Shown in pieces: positions 26,136-63,998 of a stretch of DNA of 64,000 nucleotides. Position 1 is the first letter of the stretch. Each line of letters opens with the position of its first letter. Made by a program: the position numbers and the translations under genes. This DNA comes from Gemmatimonadota bacterium (lineage in GTDB: Bacteria > Gemmatimonadota > Gemmatimonadetes > Longimicrobiales > Gaopeijiaceae): NCBI GenBank assembly GCA_028873815.1, contig JAPPNN010000040.1:63405-127404 (forward strand), in the 5' to 3' direction. The notes below the pieces were generated by a model. It was not told where the DNA came from. It made no database searches and worked only from the letters and a program-made list of their open reading frames with translations.

Positions 26136-27491
26136 ATGAAAACCTGGATCGACCGGGCATCTTTCCCCGGCAGCCTGTTCCACGTTTCGCTGATTGTCGT
26201 CCTGGCGGGCTGCGCCGATGGTTCGAATCAGGCATCAGCGCCCGGTGCGACGACGGTCCGGGACAGCGCGGGCGTGCGTATCGTGACCAGTGCGGCGCCG
26301 CTGTGGGGCGCGGGAGCCGAGTGGACGGTGGCCCCTGAGCCATCCGTTACGACCGGCAACGACGAGCCGATGGGCAACGGGGCGGACATCCTCTTCGGAT
26401 CGATTCGAGCCATGGTGGTGCTGCCGAGCGGGCGCTTCGCAGTCGCCGACGAACACTCCGCCGTCGTTTCGGTTTTCGATCCCGACGGGCAGTTCGTCCA
26501 CCGCTTCGGCGGCCGTGGAGAAGGGCCAGGCGAAGTTGGCGGCATCTGGGACCTTTACGCATGCGCTGGAGACACGGTCATCGTGCGCTTTCGAACCGAA
26601 CTCAGCTTCTTCGGCGGCGACGGCGAGTTCATGCGCCGCATCAACAGTTCGGGCGCGGGCACGACCTGGTCACTCGAGGCGGTGGCGCCCGACTGCCGCA
26701 ACTTCATCGCCTCGCGATCTGCGGCCGGACCAACGCCGCCGTCAGGTCAGGAGTGGCTGTTGCACAGCGTGCTCGTGCACACTGACGATGGGTTTGTCGC
26801 CACCGACACCGTGGCCCAGGAGGTGACAGGCGAGGGGTTCACGGGTTCGCCGCGAGGAGAGGACGTCTTCGTGGCGCTCCCCTGGACACCGGTCGACGCC
26901 AATGTGGAGCTCAGGGGCGACCAGTTGCTTGCGGGATACGGGCGGTGGGCGGAGTTCCGGATCCATTCCCTCGGCAGGGGCCTTGAGCAGCTGATCCGCT
27001 GGCACGCCACTCCCGACGAGGTCACGGCCGCCGACCACGACCGGTACATGGCCAAGCGCAGTGAGTTCCTCGCCAGGTACGAAGGCAGTCCCGACGCGCT
27101 ATTCGCCTTCCCCTCGCTGCGCGAGTTTCCACGGGTCCCGACCCACAAGCCGTTCTTTGACCGTTTCCTGATCGACGACGCGGGCAACATCTGGGCTCGC
27201 CACTTTCCATCGACCGGGCTCGGCATCCAGGATCTGCGTCCGCCGCGCGACCCCGCCCCGCCCGCAACCTGGACGGTGCTCGACTCAGCTGGTGTCTGGT
27301 TGGGACCCGTGCGCCTGCCCGACGGGTTCGCCGCGCACGAGGTGGCGAACGGCTGTGTATACGGGGTCCACACCTCGCCGCTCGGGGCACAGACTGTCAG
27401 GGTCTATCGACTCGTCCGCGGGGCCTCGACTGGCGACGGGCCGCCTCACCCTTCCTCGGTACGTAGTACATGCCTGGACGCCCCGTTGTGA
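26136..27491 (+). CDS. 6-bladed beta-propeller lipoprotein
   Basis: 451 aa from the ATG at 26136, which puts the signal peptide (MKTWIDRASF, hydrophobic core, LAGC lipobox) at the N-terminus; an in-frame ATG at 26088 would add 16 residues before it. Propeller blades show as SVFDPDGQFVHRFGGRGEGPGEV (about residues 108-130) and similar NHL-type turns. DSAGVRIVTS, shortly after the lipobox, is recurrent in this Gemmatimonadota family. No enzymatic motif is seen. Probably an outer-membrane or periplasmic lipoprotein of unknown function. Confidence 0.7.
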   Translation: MKTWIDRASFPGSLFHVSLIVVLAGCADGSNQASAPGATTVRDSAGVRIVTSAAPLWGAGAEWTVAPEPSVTTGNDEPMGNGADILFGSIRAMVVLPSGRFAVADEHSAVVSVFDPDGQFVHRFGGRGEGPGEVGGIWDLYACAGDTVIVRFRTELSFFGGDGEFMRRINSSGAGTTWSLEAVAPDCRNFIASRSAAGPTPPSGQEWLLHSVLVHTDDGFVATDTVAQEVTGEGFTGSPRGEDVFVALPWTPVDANVELRGDQLLAGYGRWAEFRIHSLGRGLEQLIRWHATPDEVTAADHDRYMAKRSEFLARYEGSPDALFAFPSLREFPRVPTHKPFFDRFLIDDAGNIWARHFPSTGLGIQDLRPPRDPAPPATWTVLDSAGVWLGPVRLPDGFAAHEVANGCVYGVHTSPLGAQTVRVYRLVRGASTGDGPPHPSSVRSTCLDAPL

Positions 27492-27639
27492 GCAAGCCTG
27501 AGTTCCGAGGCGGGTCGCGGCATTGTGGTCAGGTACTGTCATATGTCCGGCCTCTTGATGCGGCGCTCATGGGCCGCGGGCCCGTGTGGTGGTCGTGAGA
27601 TCGGATCCAAATCGGTATAGGGGGCTTTCAGGCCATCCG

Positions 27640-27839
27640 AAACGAACTGGTGTTCCCGACCCCGGCCAGCTACGGATCCGCTTTCTCGCCGCGCCGGCTC
27701 GCTTGCTGAACAACCGCCATGGCTCCTGTGCAGAGGAGCCGCCTCAGGTCGCGCTGGCCCACCTTCGATATCCTGCCAGCTTCGGGTTACCCCCGGTCGT
27801 GTGCTGCCGGGGCACAACGCCGAGCCACGCTGAGAAGCG
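27640..27839 (-). pseudogene. IS110-family transposase remnant (C-terminal part)
   Basis: Read leftwards from 27839, the sequence encodes RFSAWLGVVPRQHTTGGNPKL, then after a frameshift GQRDLRRLLCTGAMAVVQQAS, then RRGEKADP and a stop followed by LAGVG. This is the order of motifs in the C-terminal transposase_20 domain of IS110-family proteins. Frameshift, stop and loss of the N-terminal RuvC-like domain make it inactive. It abuts the IS481 remnant at about 27839/27840. Confidence 0.7.
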
Positions 27840-28035
27840 GACGACCTGGTACGAGAGCCTCGAGGAGATGCAGAAGGACTTGGACGGCTATCTTGAGACT
27901 TACAACACCCGCCGGCCCCACCGCGGCCGCGGCATGGAGGGTGCGACGCCCTACGAGGTCTTCAAGGCCAAGCTCCCGCGGCAGCTGTCCACTCGGAAGC
28001 CTGCAGCCAGAAAGGAGGTCAAGACCGCAGCGTAG
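27840..28035 (+). pseudogene. IS481-family transposase remnant (C-terminal part)
   Basis: The last 65 codons carry TTWYESLEEMQKDLDGYLETY, then NTRRPHRGRGMEGATPYEVF, the conserved end of IS481-type DDE transposases. The catalytic DDE core is missing. Just downstream (about 28058-28083) is a stretch starting TGTCAGGT and ending TTGTACA, which resembles an IS481 terminal repeat and probably marks the right end of the old element. The open frame continues leftwards through the IS110 debris by chance. It lies immediately beside the low-GC NTPase gene. Confidence 0.75.
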
Positions 28036-28095
28036 ACCTGACCTCGGCGAGGCCGGATGTCAGGTGATTACCGTACTTGTACAGCCGAGCAGTGA

Positions 28096-30282
28096 CTACT
28101 GCGCTACGAGCAGGTCCAGGTACGCAGCGGCCATTGCCGTCTCTTCCGCACCATCTTGTTGAAGACCTCGGACACTCTGCTCTATCGTGTCGGGAATCCA
28201 TCTCCTGATTACTGGCAAGACTTCCTTAGCGGGATCCGCATCCCTCATGTAGGATACCACGTCGCGACAAGCCTCACAGAACGAAAGCAATCGTTCTCGG
28301 TCGCCTATACGTGTCGCAATCACCTCTCTTACTCCTGCATCTATACACTCTTTGATCTCACGGCGCATGATGTTATTTCCGTGTTCCGCACTCCAATCCA
28401 CACTCAACAAGTAGTACCAACGATACGACCGCCAAAACTCGTCTTGCGCTGCATCCTGAAGGATGTTGGCGGAAAGTCGTTGGCCAAGGTCCCTCACAAC
28501 CTCGTCCGTAGTACCACTGTATTCATTGATTGTCTGAGACTCTGACAGGTACTGAAACACTTTTGTAACAACAAAGCGATTATACTCTATCAGATTCCGC
28601 AAGAAGCCCACTTGATTGTTCCCCTGCTGATAAGTGGTACATTCGTGTATAATCCGCCCAAGTAGCGTACCGTCGTTGTCGCAATCGCGTAACCGGAGAT
28701 CATCCTCAGGGTCAATAGTACACAACGCTTGTGCGATCCTTTCTACGGCAGCAGGACCGAGGTTTGGTGCGTTACTCTTCCCAATCTCTCTTGCTACCTC
28801 GCAAAGAGCTTGCAGCAATCCTCTAGTCCTACCTTTTCTCCCAACAATTCTGGACCACTCACAAAGTACTCCCTTCACCTCAGCATCGCCTTCTGTTCCG
28901 GTGTCCGCCGCCCTCGTCAACTGCGTCGCAAACCTGACTCGTTCTTCTGGCGATAGCTCTTCACTAGGAATAGTGAACAGAAAATACCGATCAATAGTCC
29001 GACGACAGCACACGCGTCGCTCCATTGACCACCGTGCTTGTCTGTCACCATGCGCAGCACTCTCATTCCCTTCTCTCAGCTCTGGAAAAGCGCCGCAGAT
29101 CAACTGCGTCAACGAGGTAGTGATATTCGGCGGCATCTCCAAGTTCTTCAACGATGTCGCCAACCAAACAGAAGGGGGATCATCGTCAGAGACCCCGTCT
29201 TCCCCGCTCTCGCCAATGAGCCTATACCTGCTGGCACTGAGCATGGCATACACCTCGGGATAGACCACGCGACACAGTTCGATGACAAAAAAGTCGATAA
29301 GATCAACTCTCCCCTTGACGGGTGGCAGGGATAGCCTAAGGGCATTGACGTAGCGCTTTATTCCACGAACGGTGCTAAAGTGCGTCGCCATACCCTGCTT
29401 GAGCATCTTTTCGTAGCGGCGCGGGTTGAGCGGTTCTTTCGACACAAGCCTTCTGACGTCATCCAGCTCCTCTGTTAGGATTGTACGCAGTGCTGCGCGC
29501 CCGGGTCTCGGAATATTGTAGGAAACATGAATGATCTTCTCCAGGTACCTGCGACCCGACACTGGGTCATCGCGATCCAGGTGTCGCTCCACGACAGCGC
29601 TGTCGAATGCAAGTACGTATGTGATGTTCTTGAAGTCGGCGCATAGTCGCACCGTCCGAAAAAGCAACTCTGTGACATCAGGCTCAAGTCTGTCGATATC
29701 GTCCACAAACACGATGACTCGTCGCCCGAGCGACTCTAGCTTGCGGTCGATGGCCTCTTTACGATCGGAGATACTCTGCTTGCTGAGTTGATTCCCTATG
29801 GCCTTTGTAAGCGCCGCTGTTCCAGGAGGCACCACCGGACACAATGACGCGATGAGAGGACCGAATTCCTTCAGTAGTTTGCCTATGTTCGAATTGCCAG
29901 CGTTCGCGCCAATCTTGTCGGCAAGTTGCGCAAAGAACATCCGAATCAACTGCTCGACATTGCCGTAGAGCCAAGGATTAAAGTTGACAATAATTGGCTG
30001 AAGACGCGAACTGTCATGAGGTGTCGTTTCATCTGGCCGCTTTGAGCCTGACTCAAGACGACCAGAAAGCAGGTGGAGGAATGAGGACTTCCCTGTACCC
30101 CATGGAGCGTTTAGTCCTATGACTATGGGCTGGTGAGTGTCCGTGGCTTCGATCTGCCGAGCCAGGGCTTCGACTAGTTGGTCTCGACTTAGGAGGTCCT
30201 TTTGTGTCTTGCGAATCGGTTCGTCGTCCCGCAGTGACTCAATCGACAACGGCCTGTCGGGATTCCCAGGGTTGTTACTCAT
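28096..30282 (-). CDS. KAP-family P-loop NTPase, low-GC acquired gene
   Basis: 728 aa from the ATG at 30282, with CCGGAGG about 13 bases upstream. Walker A is GLNAPWGTGKSS (residues 56-67), FNPW at 101-104 is the conserved KAP motif, and Walker B is RVIVFVDDIDRL (188-199), followed by the ITYVLAFD sensor strand. The usual membrane hairpin of KAP proteins is not obvious; residues 141-160 are only moderately hydrophobic, so the protein may be soluble. The C-terminal 400 residues are helical and unassigned. Base composition drops to roughly 35-50% GC, far below the neighbours, and both sides are transposase debris, so the gene is very likely acquired. KAP NTPases occur in several anti-phage systems, for example as ATPase components, but a defence role here is inference. 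Confidence 0.8.
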   Translation of the reverse strand: MSNNPGNPDRPLSIESLRDDEPIRKTQKDLLSRDQLVEALARQIEATDTHQPIVIGLNAPWGTGKSSFLHLLSGRLESGSKRPDETTPHDSSRLQPIIVNFNPWLYGNVEQLIRMFFAQLADKIGANAGNSNIGKLLKEFGPLIASLCPVVPPGTAALTKAIGNQLSKQSISDRKEAIDRKLESLGRRVIVFVDDIDRLEPDVTELLFRTVRLCADFKNITYVLAFDSAVVERHLDRDDPVSGRRYLEKIIHVSYNIPRPGRAALRTILTEELDDVRRLVSKEPLNPRRYEKMLKQGMATHFSTVRGIKRYVNALRLSLPPVKGRVDLIDFFVIELCRVVYPEVYAMLSASRYRLIGESGEDGVSDDDPPSVWLATSLKNLEMPPNITTSLTQLICGAFPELREGNESAAHGDRQARWSMERRVCCRRTIDRYFLFTIPSEELSPEERVRFATQLTRAADTGTEGDAEVKGVLCEWSRIVGRKGRTRGLLQALCEVAREIGKSNAPNLGPAAVERIAQALCTIDPEDDLRLRDCDNDGTLLGRIIHECTTYQQGNNQVGFLRNLIEYNRFVVTKVFQYLSESQTINEYSGTTDEVVRDLGQRLSANILQDAAQDEFWRSYRWYYLLSVDWSAEHGNNIMRREIKECIDAGVREVIATRIGDRERLLSFCEACRDVVSYMRDADPAKEVLPVIRRWIPDTIEQSVRGLQQDGAEETAMAAAYLDLLVAQ

Positions 30283-30300
30283 CGATACATTGCCTCCGGA

Positions 30301-30622
30301 TGTAGCGGTCTCGGTTTATTGGACAAGTGGGCGGGGTCGACATCAGGGCTGCCCTTCTGCTGAGTTTCTCGCGGGCACCGGCCGGGGTCATGTACCCCGC
30401 CGCTGGAGGGGCAAGCTGCTGTTTGTAATGGTCGATGAAGGCCCCGATCCGCGCTCCGGCCTGCCACCCGAGTGGGCCCGCACCCCCACCGGCTCCAGCA
30501 CCGGGCAGCGGTCGCCTTTCTTCCCTACGTGCCAGGCGACGACGTCTGAGGTGCAGTGGTCGACGGCCGCGAAGAGCCAGCACCAGCGCCACGGCACCGA
30601 AGCCCCACGTCTGCGCGGTCAT
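30301..30622 (-). pseudogene. IS3-type transposase remnant
   Basis: On the minus strand one frame encodes WLFAAVDHCTSDVVAWHVG, then KKGDRCPVLEPV, the second-Asp region of an IS3 rve (DDE) domain. A shifted frame then gives GAFIDHYKQQ, with MTPAGAREKLSRR after it, matching the C-terminus of such proteins after an internal deletion. TGTAGCGGTC at 30301 looks like the terminal end of the element, 18 bases from the KAP start codon. No intact transposase remains. The KAP promoter must lie within this debris. Confidence 0.65.
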
Positions 30623-31461
30623 CGGACGCTCCGGGCCACCCGGAATCCGCGGTGGAGGCTCCGGCTGCTGGCGTCGCCCCGCCGCCGGTAGGCCGAACGG
30701 AGATAGGTCGGGGCGTAGTAGAAGCCACCGCCCCGCACCACGCGATAGTCACAATCCCCCGCGTACGATGAGCTTCCGTCGGACGGAGCATCTTCGTAGT
30801 CGCCATAACAGTCGTCCAACCACTCCCACACGTTCCCCAGTACATCGTACAGGCCGAAACCATTCGGTCGGTACGAGCCGACTGGCGCCGCATACTCCTG
30901 TCGGTCCCGACAGCCGACACTACTGTCGCCGTTGGCATACTGGCACTGCTCGCGCGTCCCGTCCCCCCAGTATCGAGCCGTTTGAGTTCCTGCCCGCGCC
31001 GCGTACTCCCACTCAGCTTCACTCAGCAGTCGGTACTCCTCTCCCGTGTGTTCCGTCAACCAATCCGCATACTGCCACGCATCCTCCCATCTCACTTCGG
31101 ATACAGGACGCCTGCCGCGGCCGTACCAGTCATATGGTTCGTAGCCTCCACATCCGCCTCCCTGCACGCATGCATCCCACTCATCGAACGTGACTTCGTA
31201 CACGCCCACGGCGAACGCGTAGCCGATCGTGACCTGGCGCTGAGGCCCTTCGTTCTCCCGCCGCCCATCCTCCGTCTCCGGCGACCCCATTTTGAAGCTG
31301 CCAGCGGGCACCACGACCATCTCGGGACACACGTCGCAGTCCCGGAACACTTCGCCCATTTCCTGGCCCACAACTGATCTCGCCGGCATCAAGAACCCAA
31401 TCGCCGTCAGCGCGAACAATCCTGCCAGTCCCCCCCACCGGGTCGCACGGAATCGGGTCAT
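30619..31461 (-). CDS. Exported formylglycine-generating-enzyme-like (SUMF1-domain) protein
   Basis: 280 aa; the ATG at 31461 overlaps the stop of the ankyrin gene (ATGA). A signal peptide (about residues 10-32) precedes the FGE-sulfatase domain: PEMVVVPAGSFKMGSP, LLSEAEWEYAARAGT, YDVLGNVWEWLDD, then RVVRGGGFYYAPTYLRSAYR and GFRVARS. These motifs define the fold. The paired active-site Cys of true formylglycine-generating enzymes is not evident, so it is probably a SUMF1-fold protein of other function. It forms a two-gene operon with the upstream ankyrin protein. Confidence 0.8.
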   Translation of the reverse strand: MTRFRATRWGGLAGLFALTAIGFLMPARSVVGQEMGEVFRDCDVCPEMVVVPAGSFKMGSPETEDGRRENEGPQRQVTIGYAFAVGVYEVTFDEWDACVQGGGCGGYEPYDWYGRGRRPVSEVRWEDAWQYADWLTEHTGEEYRLLSEAEWEYAARAGTQTARYWGDGTREQCQYANGDSSVGCRDRQEYAAPVGSYRPNGFGLYDVLGNVWEWLDDCYGDYEDAPSDGSSSYAGDCDYRVVRGGGFYYAPTYLRSAYRRRGDASSRSLHRGFRVARSVR

Positions 31462-58991: not shown

Positions 58992-59165
58992 CGTTGGAGA
59001 GGTCCTCCGGAAAGGGGGGTCAAATAGGTTCCCCCCTATGGTGCGACAACCCCATCATCAACCGATCACGGCCGCGTTGCTACACCGTTCCACTCGAGCG
59101 GCAGCGACCCTGAGTGCCGATCCGTCCAGTGTCGGCTTTACCACCCCGTCGACGGGTACGAGACG

Positions 59166-59981
59166 CTATGCCCAATCCCCTTCGGCTACGGCCCAGACCA
59201 GAGATAGCACTTGGGATTGGCGTGGGACCGCCAGCGTACTCTCAAATAGTTCAACGGGCTGGCGTTGCTCGTTCTCAAGCCACGCGTACGGGTCGAGAGC
59301 TTCAGCTTCTTCGTTTGCCTCCTCACCGCTGAAGACCGCCTTCGCGTGACTCTCCACGGGTACCGGATCACCCCGCCACGGAATGCGGTAAACGAAACCC
59401 TTGGACTTCGCGACCCACTCGATGATCCCATCACGGGCGCATACGAGACTGCATGAAGAGCGCGTGACCTCCACGTAACGAAGCGCAGCCGCCGTGCGAG
59501 AGACATCGTACATGTCCCGTTCCGCCAGTTCGCCGATCTCTCGGAAGTTGGGGTCTCGGCCTCGTGCGTCCTGGGAGAAAAGATGCCGAGGCATGAGCAA
59601 CTCGGCCGCGAAGTCGTTCGCCTCCCGCTCGTGGAGGCTCCCACGGTGCGCTCCAGCTGTCATATCGGCGTCGCCGCACCGTCGGGTCGCGCGATTCTTG
59701 TGGGTTGGAATATGGTAGTGGCCGAGCTCATGGGCTATGGAAAACCGTCGCCGGCCGCGGTTCTGACCAGGCGCGAGCATGATGCCGGCGGGCGAGTCGG
59801 GGGCCGGCCTAACGAGGCAAGCGGTGTAGCCGGGTTCTCGGACCTCTGACTCGACGACCTCAATGCCGTCGTCGGCGAGGATTGCATCCAGATCGCAAGC
59901 CCGCGCCCCGTCCGACAAACCACGTGCCCGCCGAAAGAGCTGGGCTACGCGCCGGCCGTTCCGACTTGGTCGGGTGGCCAT
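59166..59981 (-). CDS. ImmA/IrrE-family metallopeptidase
   Basis: 271 aa. HELGH at 84-88 is the zinc motif and HEREANDFAAELLMP (117-131) provides the third ligand Glu and conserved helix. The start follows the XRE gene stop by three bases, forming the typical XRE-ImmA pair. Such proteases cleave or remove their partner repressor on a signal such as DNA damage or infection. The C-terminal 90 residues (after about 180) are an additional domain of unknown role. Confidence 0.88.
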   Translation of the reverse strand: MATRPSRNGRRVAQLFRRARGLSDGARACDLDAILADDGIEVVESEVREPGYTACLVRPAPDSPAGIMLAPGQNRGRRRFSIAHELGHYHIPTHKNRATRRCGDADMTAGAHRGSLHEREANDFAAELLMPRHLFSQDARGRDPNFREIGELAERDMYDVSRTAAALRYVEVTRSSCSLVCARDGIIEWVAKSKGFVYRIPWRGDPVPVESHAKAVFSGEEANEEAEALDPYAWLENEQRQPVELFESTLAVPRQSQVLSLVWAVAEGDWA

Positions 59982-59984
59982 GGC

Positions 59985-60308
59985 TCACCCCGACTTGGTG
60001 TGCTTCTGGCTGAGGTACTCCGCGAAGTGTCGGATCTCCTCCTTCGCCTCGTCCGGCAGACTTCGGTACTGGCGGAAGTGAACCTGCTCAGCGGGTGACA
60101 GCTCATCGACATCCCTTCCGAGGAGGTGCCCAGGGCTTACGCCCAAGGCACGAGCCAGCCTTCTCAGCATTCGGAACGACGGTTCGCGTTCACCCCGTTC
60201 CATCTGCGAAATCGCACTTTGGGAGGTGTTTAGAGCGCGGGCAAGCCCGCTTTGAGTCAGTCCCGCGTCGGTCCGGATTTCCTGCAACCGCCTGCCGAAA
60301 TCGTTCAT
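59985..60308 (-). CDS. XRE-family HTH repressor
   Basis: 107 aa from the ATG at 60308; longer in-frame starts would add a stretch unlike the family. The HTH is FGRRLQEIRTDAGLTQSGLA, then RALNTSQSAISQMERGEREPS (residues 4-44). A C-terminal helix (LPDEAKEEIRHFAEYLSQKH) may bind the ImmA partner. It is divergent from the Ubl operon, with 188 bases shared between them, so it probably controls both. Confidence 0.88.
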   Translation of the reverse strand: MNDFGRRLQEIRTDAGLTQSGLARALNTSQSAISQMERGEREPSFRMLRRLARALGVSPGHLLGRDVDELSPAEQVHFRQYRSLPDEAKEEIRHFAEYLSQKHTKSG

Positions 60309-60347
60309 GAGCCTGGATCCCAGAGGAAGAAGGGGGTTATCATCGTC

Positions 60348-60375
60348 TTGACATCCATCGCGCACACGATATATT
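60348..60375 (+). promoter_or_regulatory. Promoter of the Ubl-E2-E1/JAB operon
   Basis: TTGACA (60348-60353, perfect -35) and TATATT (60370-60375) are separated by 16 bp, giving a leader of about 110 bases before the Ubl ATG. It lies 40-67 bases from the XRE start codon, so the XRE protein could regulate it. Confidence 0.6.
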
Positions 60376-60496
60376 ACTCCCAGTGCTTGAAACCTATCGC
60401 TGGCTGTCCCGCGGTAGCAAGTCGCCGAGCACCATGAGGGTGTCGCGGCACGGGGCCGGACCCCGCATGGGCTCACCACACACGGAGTGTCGATTG

Positions 60497-60781
60497 ATGA
60501 CTACGAAGCCTGACACGAAGCGCGCAGCGAAGCCTGACACGAAACCCGGGGGCGGGCCCTCGGTCACGTTCACGATCGACGGTGTAGAGTACACCACGGA
60601 CGATCGACCCCAGAAGGTGGCAGATCTCCTGTGCCTGGCGGGTGTCGATCCGAAAGATCACGACCTCGGCCTGGTCGGTCCTCAAGGCACCGTGAGGAAG
60701 CTGCCCGATGACGATGACGTTCGCATCAAATCTGGCGATCGCTTCGTCACCATCTACGACGGCACCACGCCGGTCGTCTGA
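60497..60781 (+). CDS. Ubiquitin-like beta-grasp protein (multiubiquitin family, single domain)
   Basis: 94 aa from the ATG at 60497 (GGAG about ten bases upstream). Residues 1-19 contain a duplicated KPDTK, reflecting a direct DNA repeat. Residues 22-94 are one beta-grasp domain: SVTFTIDGVEYTTDD, VADLLCLAG, LGLVGPQGTVRKLPDDDDV, RFVTIYDGTTPVV, the pattern of the prokaryotic Multi_ubiq family. The protein ends in TTPVV, with no C-terminal Gly-Gly for E1 activation. It is the first gene of a three-gene operon encoding E2-like and E1/JAB proteins. Confidence 0.8.
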   Translation: MTTKPDTKRAAKPDTKPGGGPSVTFTIDGVEYTTDDRPQKVADLLCLAGVDPKDHDLGLVGPQGTVRKLPDDDDVRIKSGDRFVTIYDGTTPVV

Positions 60782-60783
60782 CG

Positions 60784-61128
60784 ATGACCGGGCTCGGAGG
60801 GTTCATGGCCGGGCTTGAGGAGCTCGGTCTCACACCGGAGCAGCGGGGTTCGCTCGTCGTCGTGAAACTGGATATCACCATCGCCGGACGCGCTGATCTA
60901 AGCGTCGTGGGCACCGATCCTGCGGGAGATTTCCCGAACATCCCTCCGCACTGGCTGCATCTCCGAAAGGAGCTAGCGTTGCCGGAAGAGACAGGTAGGT
61001 CTTCGCAGCTCGGAGACGGTTGGCGAAAGTGGAGCCGGCAGCATCCGAGCTGGAGAGGTGGAGACAACGCCGTTCAGGCATGGCTCGCCCACGCACGTTC
61101 GCTTCTTCTCATGGCGACGCTGGCGTGA
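60784..61128 (+). CDS. E2-like protein without cysteine (Prok-E2_E type)
   Basis: 114 aa, starting two bases after the Ubl stop (an ATG at 60805 is possible). DFPNIPPHWLHLRKEL and WRKWSRQHPSWRGGDNAVQAWLAHARSLL are characteristic of prokaryotic E2-like family E. The sequence contains no Cys at all, so it cannot form an E2 thioester. It may bind the Ubl and E1 as a scaffold. The next gene's GTG overlaps the stop. Confidence 0.75.
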   Translation: MTGLGGFMAGLEELGLTPEQRGSLVVVKLDITIAGRADLSVVGTDPAGDFPNIPPHWLHLRKELALPEETGRSSQLGDGWRKWSRQHPSWRGGDNAVQAWLAHARSLLLMATLA

Positions 61129-62633
61129 GCGTGCGTCGGTCGGTCGCGATGACCGGATCCACAGAGGCGGAGTTCGCAGAACACCTGCTCCGGGACGATG
61201 GCCAGGAGGACCTGTGTTTTGGGGCTTGGCGGCCATCGACCGGTCGGCAGAGGCGGACGGCAATACTGCATCAGGCGATCCTCCCACGGCGTGGCGACCG
61301 GCTCGTCCATGGCAATGCATCGTTCGAACCCGCATATACGCTCAGGGCCGCCCAGGAAGCCGCTGCGGCCGGTTGCGGGCTAGCCTTCATGCACAGCCAT
61401 CCGAAGGGCGACGGTTGGCAGTCGCTGAACGAGACGGATCGGATCGCGGAGAGTCGAATAGCAAACGTAGCCCGCGAGTTGACCGGGCTTCCTCTGGTCG
61501 GTCTCACCCTCGCGGGAGATCGGTGCTGGTCGGCGCGCGTGTGGGAAGGTGCCGGCCGCGAGGTCACTCCCGTGTCCTGCGAGACCGTGAGGACGGTCGG
61601 TGCCACCTTCGGAGCTACCTTCGACGACAGCATCCTGCCAGTGCCCCAGCCTTCGGAAATGCAGGATCGCACCGTTCACACCTGGGGCGAGGAAATCCAG
61701 GCGAAGATTGCCCGCCTGAGGGTGGCGGTAGCCGGAGTGGGGAGTGTTGGGATGGCAATTGCCGACGTACTCGCCCGTACGGGGATCGAGTGCGTCGGCG
61801 TGTTCGATTTCGACACCGTTGAGTCAATCAACCTCGATCGACTTCGTGGTGCATCGCGCTTGGATGCGTTTCTCAGGAGATCAAAGGCCGATGTAGCTCG
61901 GCGGCTGTTGGCTGATGGATCGACTGCAGCAACGCCAAGACATGAGGTTCAGGAGTTGAGCATCTGCGAGCCCCAAGGCCTGACCCGACTACTCGACTTC
62001 GATCTCATCTTCTCCTGCGTTGACCGGCCGTGGCCCCGGCACGTCCTCAACCTGATTGCTTACACGGACCTCATCCCGGTCGTCGAAGGCGGGATGAGTG
62101 CGTTTCAGAATGTGGACGGATCACTGCGCAACGCGTACTGGAGCTCCACTGTGGTGAGACCCGGTCGTCCCTGCCTGGTGTGCCTGGGGCAGTATGATCC
62201 AGCGCTCGTCCAAGTCGAGCGCGACGGCAGTCTCGACGACCCGAGCTACATCGCCAACCTCCCCGCGGATTCGCCGCTTCGACGGCGGGAGAATGTAGCG
62301 GCGATCTCCACCTCAGTGGCGGCCGCCTTGCTGGAGCAGTTCATCGCGTACGTGGCTCGTCCATCCGGATTCGGAGATCCTGGTCCTCTCCGATTCAGCC
62401 TTCGCGACCACAGTGTGAAGCGACTGGACACAGCTTGTCGCGCTGGGTGTCCGTATCCTCTGCACGTCGGCGATGGGGACGTTCGGCTCGATCCAGCTGG
62501 GTCGCACGCTGCGGCGGAGCAGGCCCGACGGGCGCGATCAACTGTGCCGGTCAAGGTTGCCATGCTGCGGGTGCTGGCCGCTGGACATCACGCGCTCGGG
62601 GAGCGACTGGCCAGATTCGCACAACAATTCTGA
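61125..62633 (+). CDS. JAB deubiquitinase-E1 (ThiF) fusion protein
   Basis: 502 aa from GTG overlapping the E2-like stop (GTGA); the ATG at 61149 is an alternative. N-terminal JAB/JAMM domain (about 10-145): Glu28, the HSHP motif at 90-93 and Asp105 are in place, but the usual Ser is Asn102. ThiF domain (about 195-420): GVGSVG (204-209), DFD (228-230) and NLDRL for ATP binding. Cys350/Cys353 (PCLVC) and Cys438/Cys442 (ACRAGC) form a probable zinc site. It is predicted to adenylate and cleave the upstream Ubl, combining activation and processing. Confidence 0.85.
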   Translation: MSVRRSVAMTGSTEAEFAEHLLRDDGQEDLCFGAWRPSTGRQRRTAILHQAILPRRGDRLVHGNASFEPAYTLRAAQEAAAAGCGLAFMHSHPKGDGWQSLNETDRIAESRIANVARELTGLPLVGLTLAGDRCWSARVWEGAGREVTPVSCETVRTVGATFGATFDDSILPVPQPSEMQDRTVHTWGEEIQAKIARLRVAVAGVGSVGMAIADVLARTGIECVGVFDFDTVESINLDRLRGASRLDAFLRRSKADVARRLLADGSTAATPRHEVQELSICEPQGLTRLLDFDLIFSCVDRPWPRHVLNLIAYTDLIPVVEGGMSAFQNVDGSLRNAYWSSTVVRPGRPCLVCLGQYDPALVQVERDGSLDDPSYIANLPADSPLRRRENVAAISTSVAAALLEQFIAYVARPSGFGDPGPLRFSLRDHSVKRLDTACRAGCPYPLHVGDGDVRLDPAGSHAAAEQARRARSTVPVKVAMLRVLAAGHHALGERLARFAQQF

Positions 62634-62648
62634 CGAGTCCGAATCACT

Positions 62649-63998
62649 TCACTCGCCTGGTCCCTGAGCTCGTCGCAGCCTGTGTTCACCAAGCTGGTGC
62701 TGGAACCGGCGGGCCACATGGCCACCGGTTTCGCCACCCTGCGCTGCGGTCCAGAGGTCATGAAGGTCCTCTAGCGCCAAAACCACAACATCGTCACGCG
62801 CGGCCTTCTCCACCTCGACCGTGGACAGCGCCGCGCGCGGTCTGGCAGTCGCGAGGACCGCGACCACTTCGCTGTCAGGGAGTTGGCTCCGTACATCCTC
62901 TGACCGAGCGATGAGCTTGCCCAGTTTACCGCCGCCGTCCGGTGGCCCGACCGTACATTCGACCGCCAGAATCGTGGAAGAGCCGGGGTCATGAGCGAGG
63001 TGGTCTACAGCGTTTCCCATCCCCTTCTGAGCGCTCAGGGGGTCTACTTGGAACCCCAGGAAGAAGAGGAGTAGACCCACGGCAGTCTCGAATTCCTTCG
63101 CATTCCGCCATTCCTCGTCCCCGAGCTTCTCGAGGAACGCGTGACCGCTTCGGTCGAAGACTTTGTGCGCTCTCATCCGCGGATTGGAGCCCGCCAGGGG
63201 CACGGATACGCAGTCCACGCATCTGTCCCCGATGAGAATGAAGAGCGTAGCGGTGTCATCGCCTTTTCGAATCGGAACGTCCAGTTGGGAGTGGAGACCA
63301 GATCCCTCCTGCTTCCATTCGTGTTCACTGAGCTTGGTTGATCCGTGACGAACAGGCTCTCCCGCCGTCCCTAGGGTCCAGACAATCTCTGCCCTAGCCA
63401 CAAAGACCTCTGCGGCAGCCCGCAAGGCTATGGTCAGGCGTTCGGACGTAGACGCTACACGCTCGCGATCAAAGCGCACGGCTAGGGGCGCGATCAGCTC
63501 GACGACAGTGGTGTTGCCCTGGATCTCAAGGCCTCGCGGCCGAGAGCAGAACCTGCGCACCAAGTCGGGCAGTCCATCGTAGGCGTTCGGCCCGCCACGA
63601 ATCATGCCGTCCAACTCGAAGGGATCGCGCCCGGCCTGCCTCACGACATCGAAGATCGTGGAACCATAGCCTACGAGCGTGTGACTGCTCCACAGGTCGT
63701 ACTCGGCATTCTGGTACGAGGCGGCCAACTCGCTGAAGCAGTATCTCAGATCAACCGTAGGCTGACCCGACTTCTGGACGTATCTGACGGAGCGCGGGCG
63801 CAGCTTCGCCACACCATCGGCGATTCCGCACACCACAGCAGACAAATCCGCAATGGGACGAACGACTTGCCAAGCCCGGAAGTCTCGCCGGTCGACGGCA
63901 GAGCGTCGCGGCACCGACCGAGGCGTTCGGTGGTCTAGGAAGCCTCGGGTGACAAGGTTCACCCAAAGGCGACCGCTCCGGAAAGCACAGAAGCGCAA
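62649..63998 (-). CDS. Uncharacterised protein with nuclease-like C-terminal region (5' end uncertain)
   Basis: Up to 449 aa. The frame is still open at the window edge with only a TTG at 63998, so the true start may be outside or further in (a GTG at 63812 is one option). The C-terminal third reads EFETAVGLLLFFLGFQVDPL, NAVDHLAHDPGSSTILAVEC, TVGPPDGGGKLGKLIAR, which resembles the D-x(n)-E-x-(K/T) core of PD-(D/E)XK restriction-like folds, with the Lys replaced (ECT). The N-terminal half is unassigned. It converges on the JAB-E1 gene with only 15 bases between stops. An effector nuclease is a reasonable but unproven guess. Confidence 0.55.
   Translation of the reverse strand: MRFCAFRSGRLWVNLVTRGFLDHRTPRSVPRRSAVDRRDFRAWQVVRPIADLSAVVCGIADGVAKLRPRSVRYVQKSGQPTVDLRYCFSELAASYQNAEYDLWSSHTLVGYGSTIFDVVRQAGRDPFELDGMIRGGPNAYDGLPDLVRRFCSRPRGLEIQGNTTVVELIAPLAVRFDRERVASTSERLTIALRAAAEVFVARAEIVWTLGTAGEPVRHGSTKLSEHEWKQEGSGLHSQLDVPIRKGDDTATLFILIGDRCVDCVSVPLAGSNPRMRAHKVFDRSGHAFLEKLGDEEWRNAKEFETAVGLLLFFLGFQVDPLSAQKGMGNAVDHLAHDPGSSTILAVECTVGPPDGGGKLGKLIARSEDVRSQLPDSEVVAVLATARPRAALSTVEVEKAARDDVVVLALEDLHDLWTAAQGGETGGHVARRFQHQLGEHRLRRAQGPGE

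Follow-up and report, generated by a model that had tools for sequence, protein, structure and literature searches.

The window (the whole 64,000-nt stretch of DNA analysed, corresponding to bases 63405–127404 of the 148457-base contig C38 of a 4.29-Mb draft genome with a completeness of 86%) contains a three-gene operon encoding a ubiquitin-like protein (Ubl), an E2-fold protein and a JAB-E1 fusion, divergent from a gene pair encoding an XRE repressor and an M78 metallopeptidase (Table 1). The operon genes abut or overlap, with the GTG start of the JAB-E1 gene overlapping the stop of the E2-like gene by 4 nt. The promoter ahead of them is the sole match to its pattern in 59000–63000, where 0.5 ± 0.8 matches are expected. 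The CapH operator was not located, as 60300–60500 holds no inverted repeat longer than 6 nt. A first-pass annotation had proposed the three-gene layout, the promoter and the divergent pair of an XRE repressor and an ImmA-type protease, and all of these were borne out, the layout by profile and fold matches to Bub proteins.

Table 1. Genes and features at the divergent locus (positions in the window)
Feature	Position	Strand	Remarks
capP-like M78 (IrrE/ImmA) metallopeptidase, 271 aa	59166..59981	-	HExxH intact
capH-like XRE repressor, 107 aa	59985..60308	-	3 nt before capP
Divergent control region, 188 bp	60309..60496	.	Between the divergent genes; likely holds the CapH operator
Sigma-70-like promoter, TTGACA-16-TATATT	60348..60375	+	11/12 consensus
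BubA-like single beta-grasp Ubl, 94 aa, C-terminus TPVV	60497..60781	+	
BubB-like E2-fold protein, 114 aa, without cysteine, Ser84 invariant among relatives	60784..61128	+	
BubCD-like JAB-E1 fusion, 502 aa	61125..62633	+	JAMM E28/H90/H92/D105; ThiF domain ~184-358
Probable zinc cysteines of the JAB-E1 fusion, C350/C353/C438/C442	61125..62633	+	

The M78 protein matches Pfam Peptidase_M78 (7.1e-14) and PADLOC capP (4.4e-52), and in the PDB it matches CapP alone (7t5t, 3.9e-14) at E up to 0.01. Its residues H84-E85-H88 are invariant in all 47 aligned proteins, namely the window protein and 46 of the 47 M78 proteins found upstream of related operons. The capP model is matched at 1e-5 or better by 44/47 M78 proteins, that of the window included; RmrA models also match many of them (one model up to 27/47), in some cases with E-values better than the best for capP. 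The XRE protein matches Pfam HTH_3 (1.6e-17), and PADLOC capH matches at 2.9e-19 on a longer open reading frame (59988–60479), alongside many other HTH models. An XRE repressor adjoining an HExxH M78 peptidase is the arrangement of CapH+CapP, a pair first named in CBASS, where it likewise lies next to the promoter of an immune-type operon. According to the accessible text of two papers, CapP is activated by single-stranded (ss) DNA and cleaves CapH (PMC13373217, PMC10904395), and ssDNA activation is also reported for PprI (PMC10904395).

To the right, in a sequence beginning one base past the window (L005:677-16850), lie genes for a DNA methylase and an endonuclease of the XhoI family, for GmrSD_N and SIR2_2 proteins encoded side by side, and for a CD-NTase together with a 2TM effector of the Cap15 type, the last two forming a CBASS system separate from the three-gene operon. 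The genes to the left read as ABC-transporter genes. The operon therefore forms the left end of a defence island, in keeping with the island location claimed at first pass. A convergent gene (62649–63998, minus strand, 395–449 aa) separates the operon from the island and is matched by no family of Pfam, PADLOC or NCBIfam up to an E-value of 1. Farther left, within 27001–31000, the G+C content drops to 0.53 near 28–30 kb, compared with roughly 0.62–0.72 elsewhere in the window; this stretch carries a called 614-aa gene (28099–29940, minus strand) and an apparent transposase fragment (27868–28032).

Kinship with Bub operons

On sequence comparison, the operon is best filed as Bub (bacterial ubiquitination-like), probably under CapH+CapP control. 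Among solved structures, those of Citrobacter BubCD and BubB and of bacterial multi-ubiquitin proteins come closest. A profile built from ten relatives of the JAB-E1 protein matches Citrobacter BubCD at 4.6e-34 over profile positions 6–408, and the protein matches Pfam ThiF at 8.9e-23. Searched singly against the PDB, the Ubl and the E2-like protein gave nothing useful. The Ubl profile reached multi-ubiquitin proteins at an E of only about 0.1, ranking behind proteasome subunits, and its identity as a BubA-like beta-grasp Ubl is settled by the predicted fold model (30 aligned rows, short single-domain Ubls only). For the E2-like protein (50 rows), the fold-model score of 8.4 is barely above the 7–8 background of the tool (VIA-align), and the assignment to the BubB-like E2 fold is carried by the sequence profile instead. 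The earlier reading of the 94-aa and 502-aa proteins as Ubl and ThiF/JAB is thus upheld, by the fold model and the BubCD match, respectively. Its E2 assignment holds for the family fold, but not for the enzyme: the window protein is not a classical E2, because it lacks cysteine and is closest to BubB/E2-variant (UEV) folds.

The solved Citrobacter system (PDB 9ea4, 9ea5, 9ea8, 9eae, 9eav) comprises a Ubl, an E2-fold protein and a JAB-E1 protein in the same domain order as the window, and its BubB, like the window protein, has no cysteine in the aligned part. In contrast to the single Ubl of the window, its BubA is multi-domain, judging from the residue numbers 155–229. The title of the paper on this pathway, as cited in PMC13373217, reports protein conjugation.

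A matching gene set appears in the accessible text of Iyer et al. 2006 (PMC1779556) as type 6e, which consists of a polyUbl protein, an inactive E2/RWD-like protein, a JAB-E1 protein and a metal-binding protein Y. As in the window, the E2-like protein is cysteine-free, JAB lies N-terminal to E1, and the one to three Ubl domains include a solo-Ubl case. The metal-binding protein, which we read as DUF6527/BubE from its cysteine/histidine pattern, has no counterpart in the window operon. The CapH+CapP pair, which here accompanies a Bub operon rather than CBASS, has also been reported with Bub, where CapW or CapH+CapP occurs in 219/544 operons (PMC13373217). Both the operon type and this pairing are therefore already in print (Iyer 2006, row 6e; EMBO J 2026), as far as the accessible text of these papers goes, and the first-pass description of a poorly described system calls for correction, as the type already has a name.

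The same annotation had placed the operon close to Bil and CBASS-type cassettes. Bil (BilA–D) and type II CBASS Cap2/Cap3 share Ubl-E1-E2-JAB chemistry but consist of other gene sets, with an E2 that has a catalytic cysteine. Membership of CBASS was rejected, because the PADLOC E1-E2 models match the ThiF stretch only, and no CD-NTase is present among the six proteins scanned in 59166–63998. A thiamine or molybdopterin E1 was also rejected, as each of the 25 NCBIfam models listed, out of 39, falls far short of its cut-off.

Two branches and the BubE gene

Another Bub operon of this genome (L006:8741-11802, contig C81) belongs to the Citrobacter-like branch. It encodes a multi-domain Ubl of up to 267 aa (the 164-aa form aligns with the solved multi-ubiquitin proteins), an E2-like protein of 126 aa and a JAB-E1 protein of 499 aa, followed by a DUF6527/BubE gene. 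Against Citrobacter BubCD, the JAB-E1 protein of this operon scores 121.6 bits across JAB and E1, whereas that of the window scores 38.8 bits in the ThiF part only. In a quick tree of 98 JAB-E1 proteins, from which Citrobacter itself is absent, 88 rows of the window type are split from 10 rows of the L006 type with 100% SH-aLRT support, along a branch of 2.13 changes per column at which the program warns that long branches meet. By score and tree, the window protein does not group with the Citrobacter-like branch, and these comparisons place its branch apart from the one with solved structures.

The branches also differ in BubE, which adjoins 6/10 L006-type genes. Using our own BubE profile, we found none in the window, in the 80 named window-type loci (0/80) or in the 11 window-type loci L030–L040 (four shared), an absence whose scope is set by the length of the flanks, since several of the 80 end close to the E1 gene. 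This profile derives from five DUF6527 proteins, of which four come from L006-type neighbourhoods, and its matches there are partly circular. PF20137, which is independent of the profile, is present in 8/21 genomes and has a single match in the window's own genome (86% complete), beside the other Bub operon (G000:C81). Because BubE is absent from the window branch, conjugation may differ from the Citrobacter pathway. In the literature outside the main Bub papers we found no description of a BubE-less Bub branch, and we do not claim that it is unpublished. What is added here is a branch far from the solved one, without BubE, with Ubl tails other than Gly-Gly, an invariant serine in the E2-like protein and M78 genes upstream.

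Conserved residues and the transfer step

Conservation in JAB-E1 was assessed in the window protein and 79 of the best 80 relatives (L062, whose E1 was called as two open reading frames, was omitted). The JAMM residues E28, H90, H92 and D105 are invariant in all 80 rows. The JAMM serine position is Ser in 70/80 rows and Asn in 10/80, including the window (Asn102), and JAB activity of the window protein may therefore be altered. The ATP-site residues G204, G206, G209, D228, D230, R239, K254 and D300 are kept in 79–80 of the 80 rows. Four E1 cysteines (C298, C350, C353 and C442) occur in every row, and C438 in 47/80; C298 sits two residues N-terminal to the ATP-site Asp300, whereas C350, C353 and C442 look like zinc ligands.

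The E2-like alignment comprises the window protein and the 54 of 80 relatives that passed length and spacing rules. It has no conserved cysteine (the best column holds 15/55), and 27/54 relatives have no cysteine at all. Ser84, by contrast, is present in 55/55, and a profile alignment places the same serine in Citrobacter BubB. Among the Ubls of the 51 of 80 relatives that passed such rules, none ends in Gly-Gly (0/51) and 47/51 end in Val or Thr followed by Ala or Ser. The Ubls of L112, L128 and L129 carry four residues beyond the conserved Val-Ser; trimming would therefore be needed, which points to maturation of the kind that eukaryotic Ubl precursors undergo.

Given this pattern of cysteine conservation, the invariant Ser84 and the Ubl tails, a classical E1-to-E2 thioester relay appears unlikely. 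Hypothetically, Ser84 might carry the acyl group; an invariant serine can equally be structural. A bolder proposal is a widespread route with cysteine at no step: the E1 would adenylate a Ubl ending in Val-Ala/Ser (Val-Val in the window), a UEV-like, cysteine-free E2 would either transfer it through the invariant serine as an oxyester or template direct attack on the acyl-adenylate, BubE would have no part, and interchangeable DNA-damage sensors (CapH+CapP, HTH-M78 fusions, a sigma factor with M78, or a sigma-like factor with an SMC-like ATPase) would gate the system. Taken as a whole, we consider this proposal speculative and rather unlikely.

Controllers, spread and function

A profile scan of genome contigs yielded 147 relatives, and the best 80 of these span Actinomycetota, Chloroflexota, Acidobacteriota, Pseudomonadota, Gemmatimonadota, Bacteroidota, Planctomycetota, Myxococcota and others. 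In a same-phylum sample, 21/395 genomes match at 1e-20, counting both branches and the window's own genome. The gene set proposed at first pass recurs: Ubl, E2 and JAB-E1 form the common core, and in the neighbourhood survey a downstream family is shared by a few loci at most. The nearest neighbour of the window operon, in Gemmatimonas sp. Dino_bin9 (67% identity), is broken: a piece of M78 meets a C-terminal piece of E2 (L030:6007-6519), and the Ubl and repressor were not found there. The contigs of L055, L112, L115 and L128 are apparently identical to those of L030, L032, L033 and L031, respectively.

An M78 protease gene lies upstream in 41 of the 70 non-redundant loci (the 80 minus 10 at ≥90% E1 identity). 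For comparison, 52 M78 matches in 21 genomes (~86 Mb) give a background of roughly 0.003 per 5 kb, a rough yardstick, as these genomes all belong to a single phylum and genes of this kind gather in islands. Classed by length alone, the 41 comprise 19 CapP-sized proteins, 17 of HTH-fusion size and 5 cases of a sigma factor, an unknown protein and M78. A further class, 7/70, has one or more of the proteins F3 (sigma-like), F7 (300 aa) and F4 (an SMC/RecF-like ATPase), and 22/70 have no recognised controller, 5 of these with less than 2.5 kb of upstream sequence. These classes come from a simple gene caller that can miss small genes; L055, for example, was classed 'none/other' despite a piece of M78. 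Pfam searches of scanned representatives returned sigma-70 regions, SMC_N, M78 and one HTH-M78 fusion.

The controllers take several forms. At L056, L060, L061, L063, L065, L069 and L076, a cassette of a sigma-70-region-4-like protein, a 300-aa protein without a family and an SMC/RecF-like ATPase (for example, L069:1901-5283) is divergent from or behind the Bub operon, its three genes not being called everywhere. At L064, L073, L100, L118, L122 and the plasmid locus L135, a sigma factor, an unknown protein of ~220 aa and M78 precede the operon on the same strand, an arrangement that suggests activation rather than derepression.

Plasmids also carry the operon: with the two branches counted jointly, there are 54 matching plasmid records at 1e-10, and in 22 of them the match covers ≥80% of the query. 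The first ten matches (44–49% identity) are likely of the window type by sequence identity; the rest of those listed (24–33%) are of uncertain branch. NCBI annotates a sigma factor and ImmA/IrrE on plasmid L135, a HigA-family antitoxin, a multiubiquitin protein and ThiF on L136, and ImmA/IrrE, a multiubiquitin protein and ThiF on L137. There was no tblastn match at 1e-5 among 50,697 phage records, and none of 40 pattern matches in viral contigs was confirmed.

Comparison of sequences and folds establishes the identities of the five genes, the intact residues of the protease, the JAB metal site and the E1 adenylation site, and the recurrence of the set. We consider it probable that the locus is a BubE-less Bub operon under CapH+CapP control, induced by DNA damage and conjugating its Ubl, in an inducible stress or anti-invader response. 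From what is known of its relatives, CapH would repress the divergent promoters until ssDNA from DNA damage (phage replication, nuclease attack or genotoxic stress) activates CapP, which would cut CapH and allow expression of the operon. The E1 domain would then adenylate the Ubl C-terminus with ATP, and the E2-fold partner, without a thioester cysteine, would bind E1 and Ubl and either position the target or carry the acyl group on another residue, Ser84 being the candidate. The Ubl would be attached to its targets, and the JAB domain would trim precursor tails and/or remove the Ubl. Within this scheme, induction by DNA damage has the strongest support; conjugation, by analogy with the Citrobacter pathway, comes next, and anti-phage action last.

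The first-pass annotation had made the operon a candidate for a defence or stress system, and defence genes do lie nearby; phage protection itself is something we infer, and for Bub operons it is, according to the accessible text of PMC13373217 (EMBO J 2026), undemonstrated. By contrast, a 2025 review regards action against phages as the apparent main role of bacterial Ubl systems and names Bub among them (PMC12687455, in excerpt). A general response to DNA damage or stress, rather than phage defence, is a serious possibility that falls somewhat short of probable: CapH+CapP answers ssDNA and DNA damage in general (PMC13373217, PMC10904395), and the EMBO J authors leave this option open for Bub, as far as the accessible text goes, whereas the nearby restriction-modification, SIR2 and CBASS genes, the patchy spread over many phyla and the presence on plasmids argue for defence.

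Far less probable is that no Ubl–protein conjugate forms, and that adenylation serves sulfur transfer or peptide or small-molecule chemistry, as in ThiS/ThiF, MoaD/MoeB or MccB-like pairs, with JAB and the E2-fold protein as accessories. In its favour, the Ubl tails never end in Gly-Gly (0/51), the E1 profile also matches MoeB, ThiF and MccB, and the conserved E1 and E2 cysteines are limited to C298 by the ATP site and the probable zinc ligands; yet the best matches are BubCD, BubB and multi-ubiquitin/BubA, of a pathway titled as protein conjugation, no biosynthetic gene family is common to the neighbourhoods, and the controllers are of the DNA-damage type. An addiction module resembling toxin–antitoxin systems, an idea on which Iyer et al. 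2006 speculated (PMC1779556), would fit the opposing modifying and de-modifying activities on one mobile cassette, its carriage on plasmids, the HigA-type antitoxin beside one plasmid copy and a single HigB-like toxin match in a scan of 66 proteins, but is similarly improbable, because with JAB and E1 in one polypeptide, toxin and antitoxin cannot decay at different rates in the usual way.

Bub operons are the bacterial kin of the ubiquitin-conjugating machinery of eukaryotes. With a single Ubl and no BubE, the branch described here offers a compact set for asking what suffices for cysteine-free Ubl transfer, and its controllers tell when the system is needed. The serine route, if true, would bear on the origin of the thioester relay.
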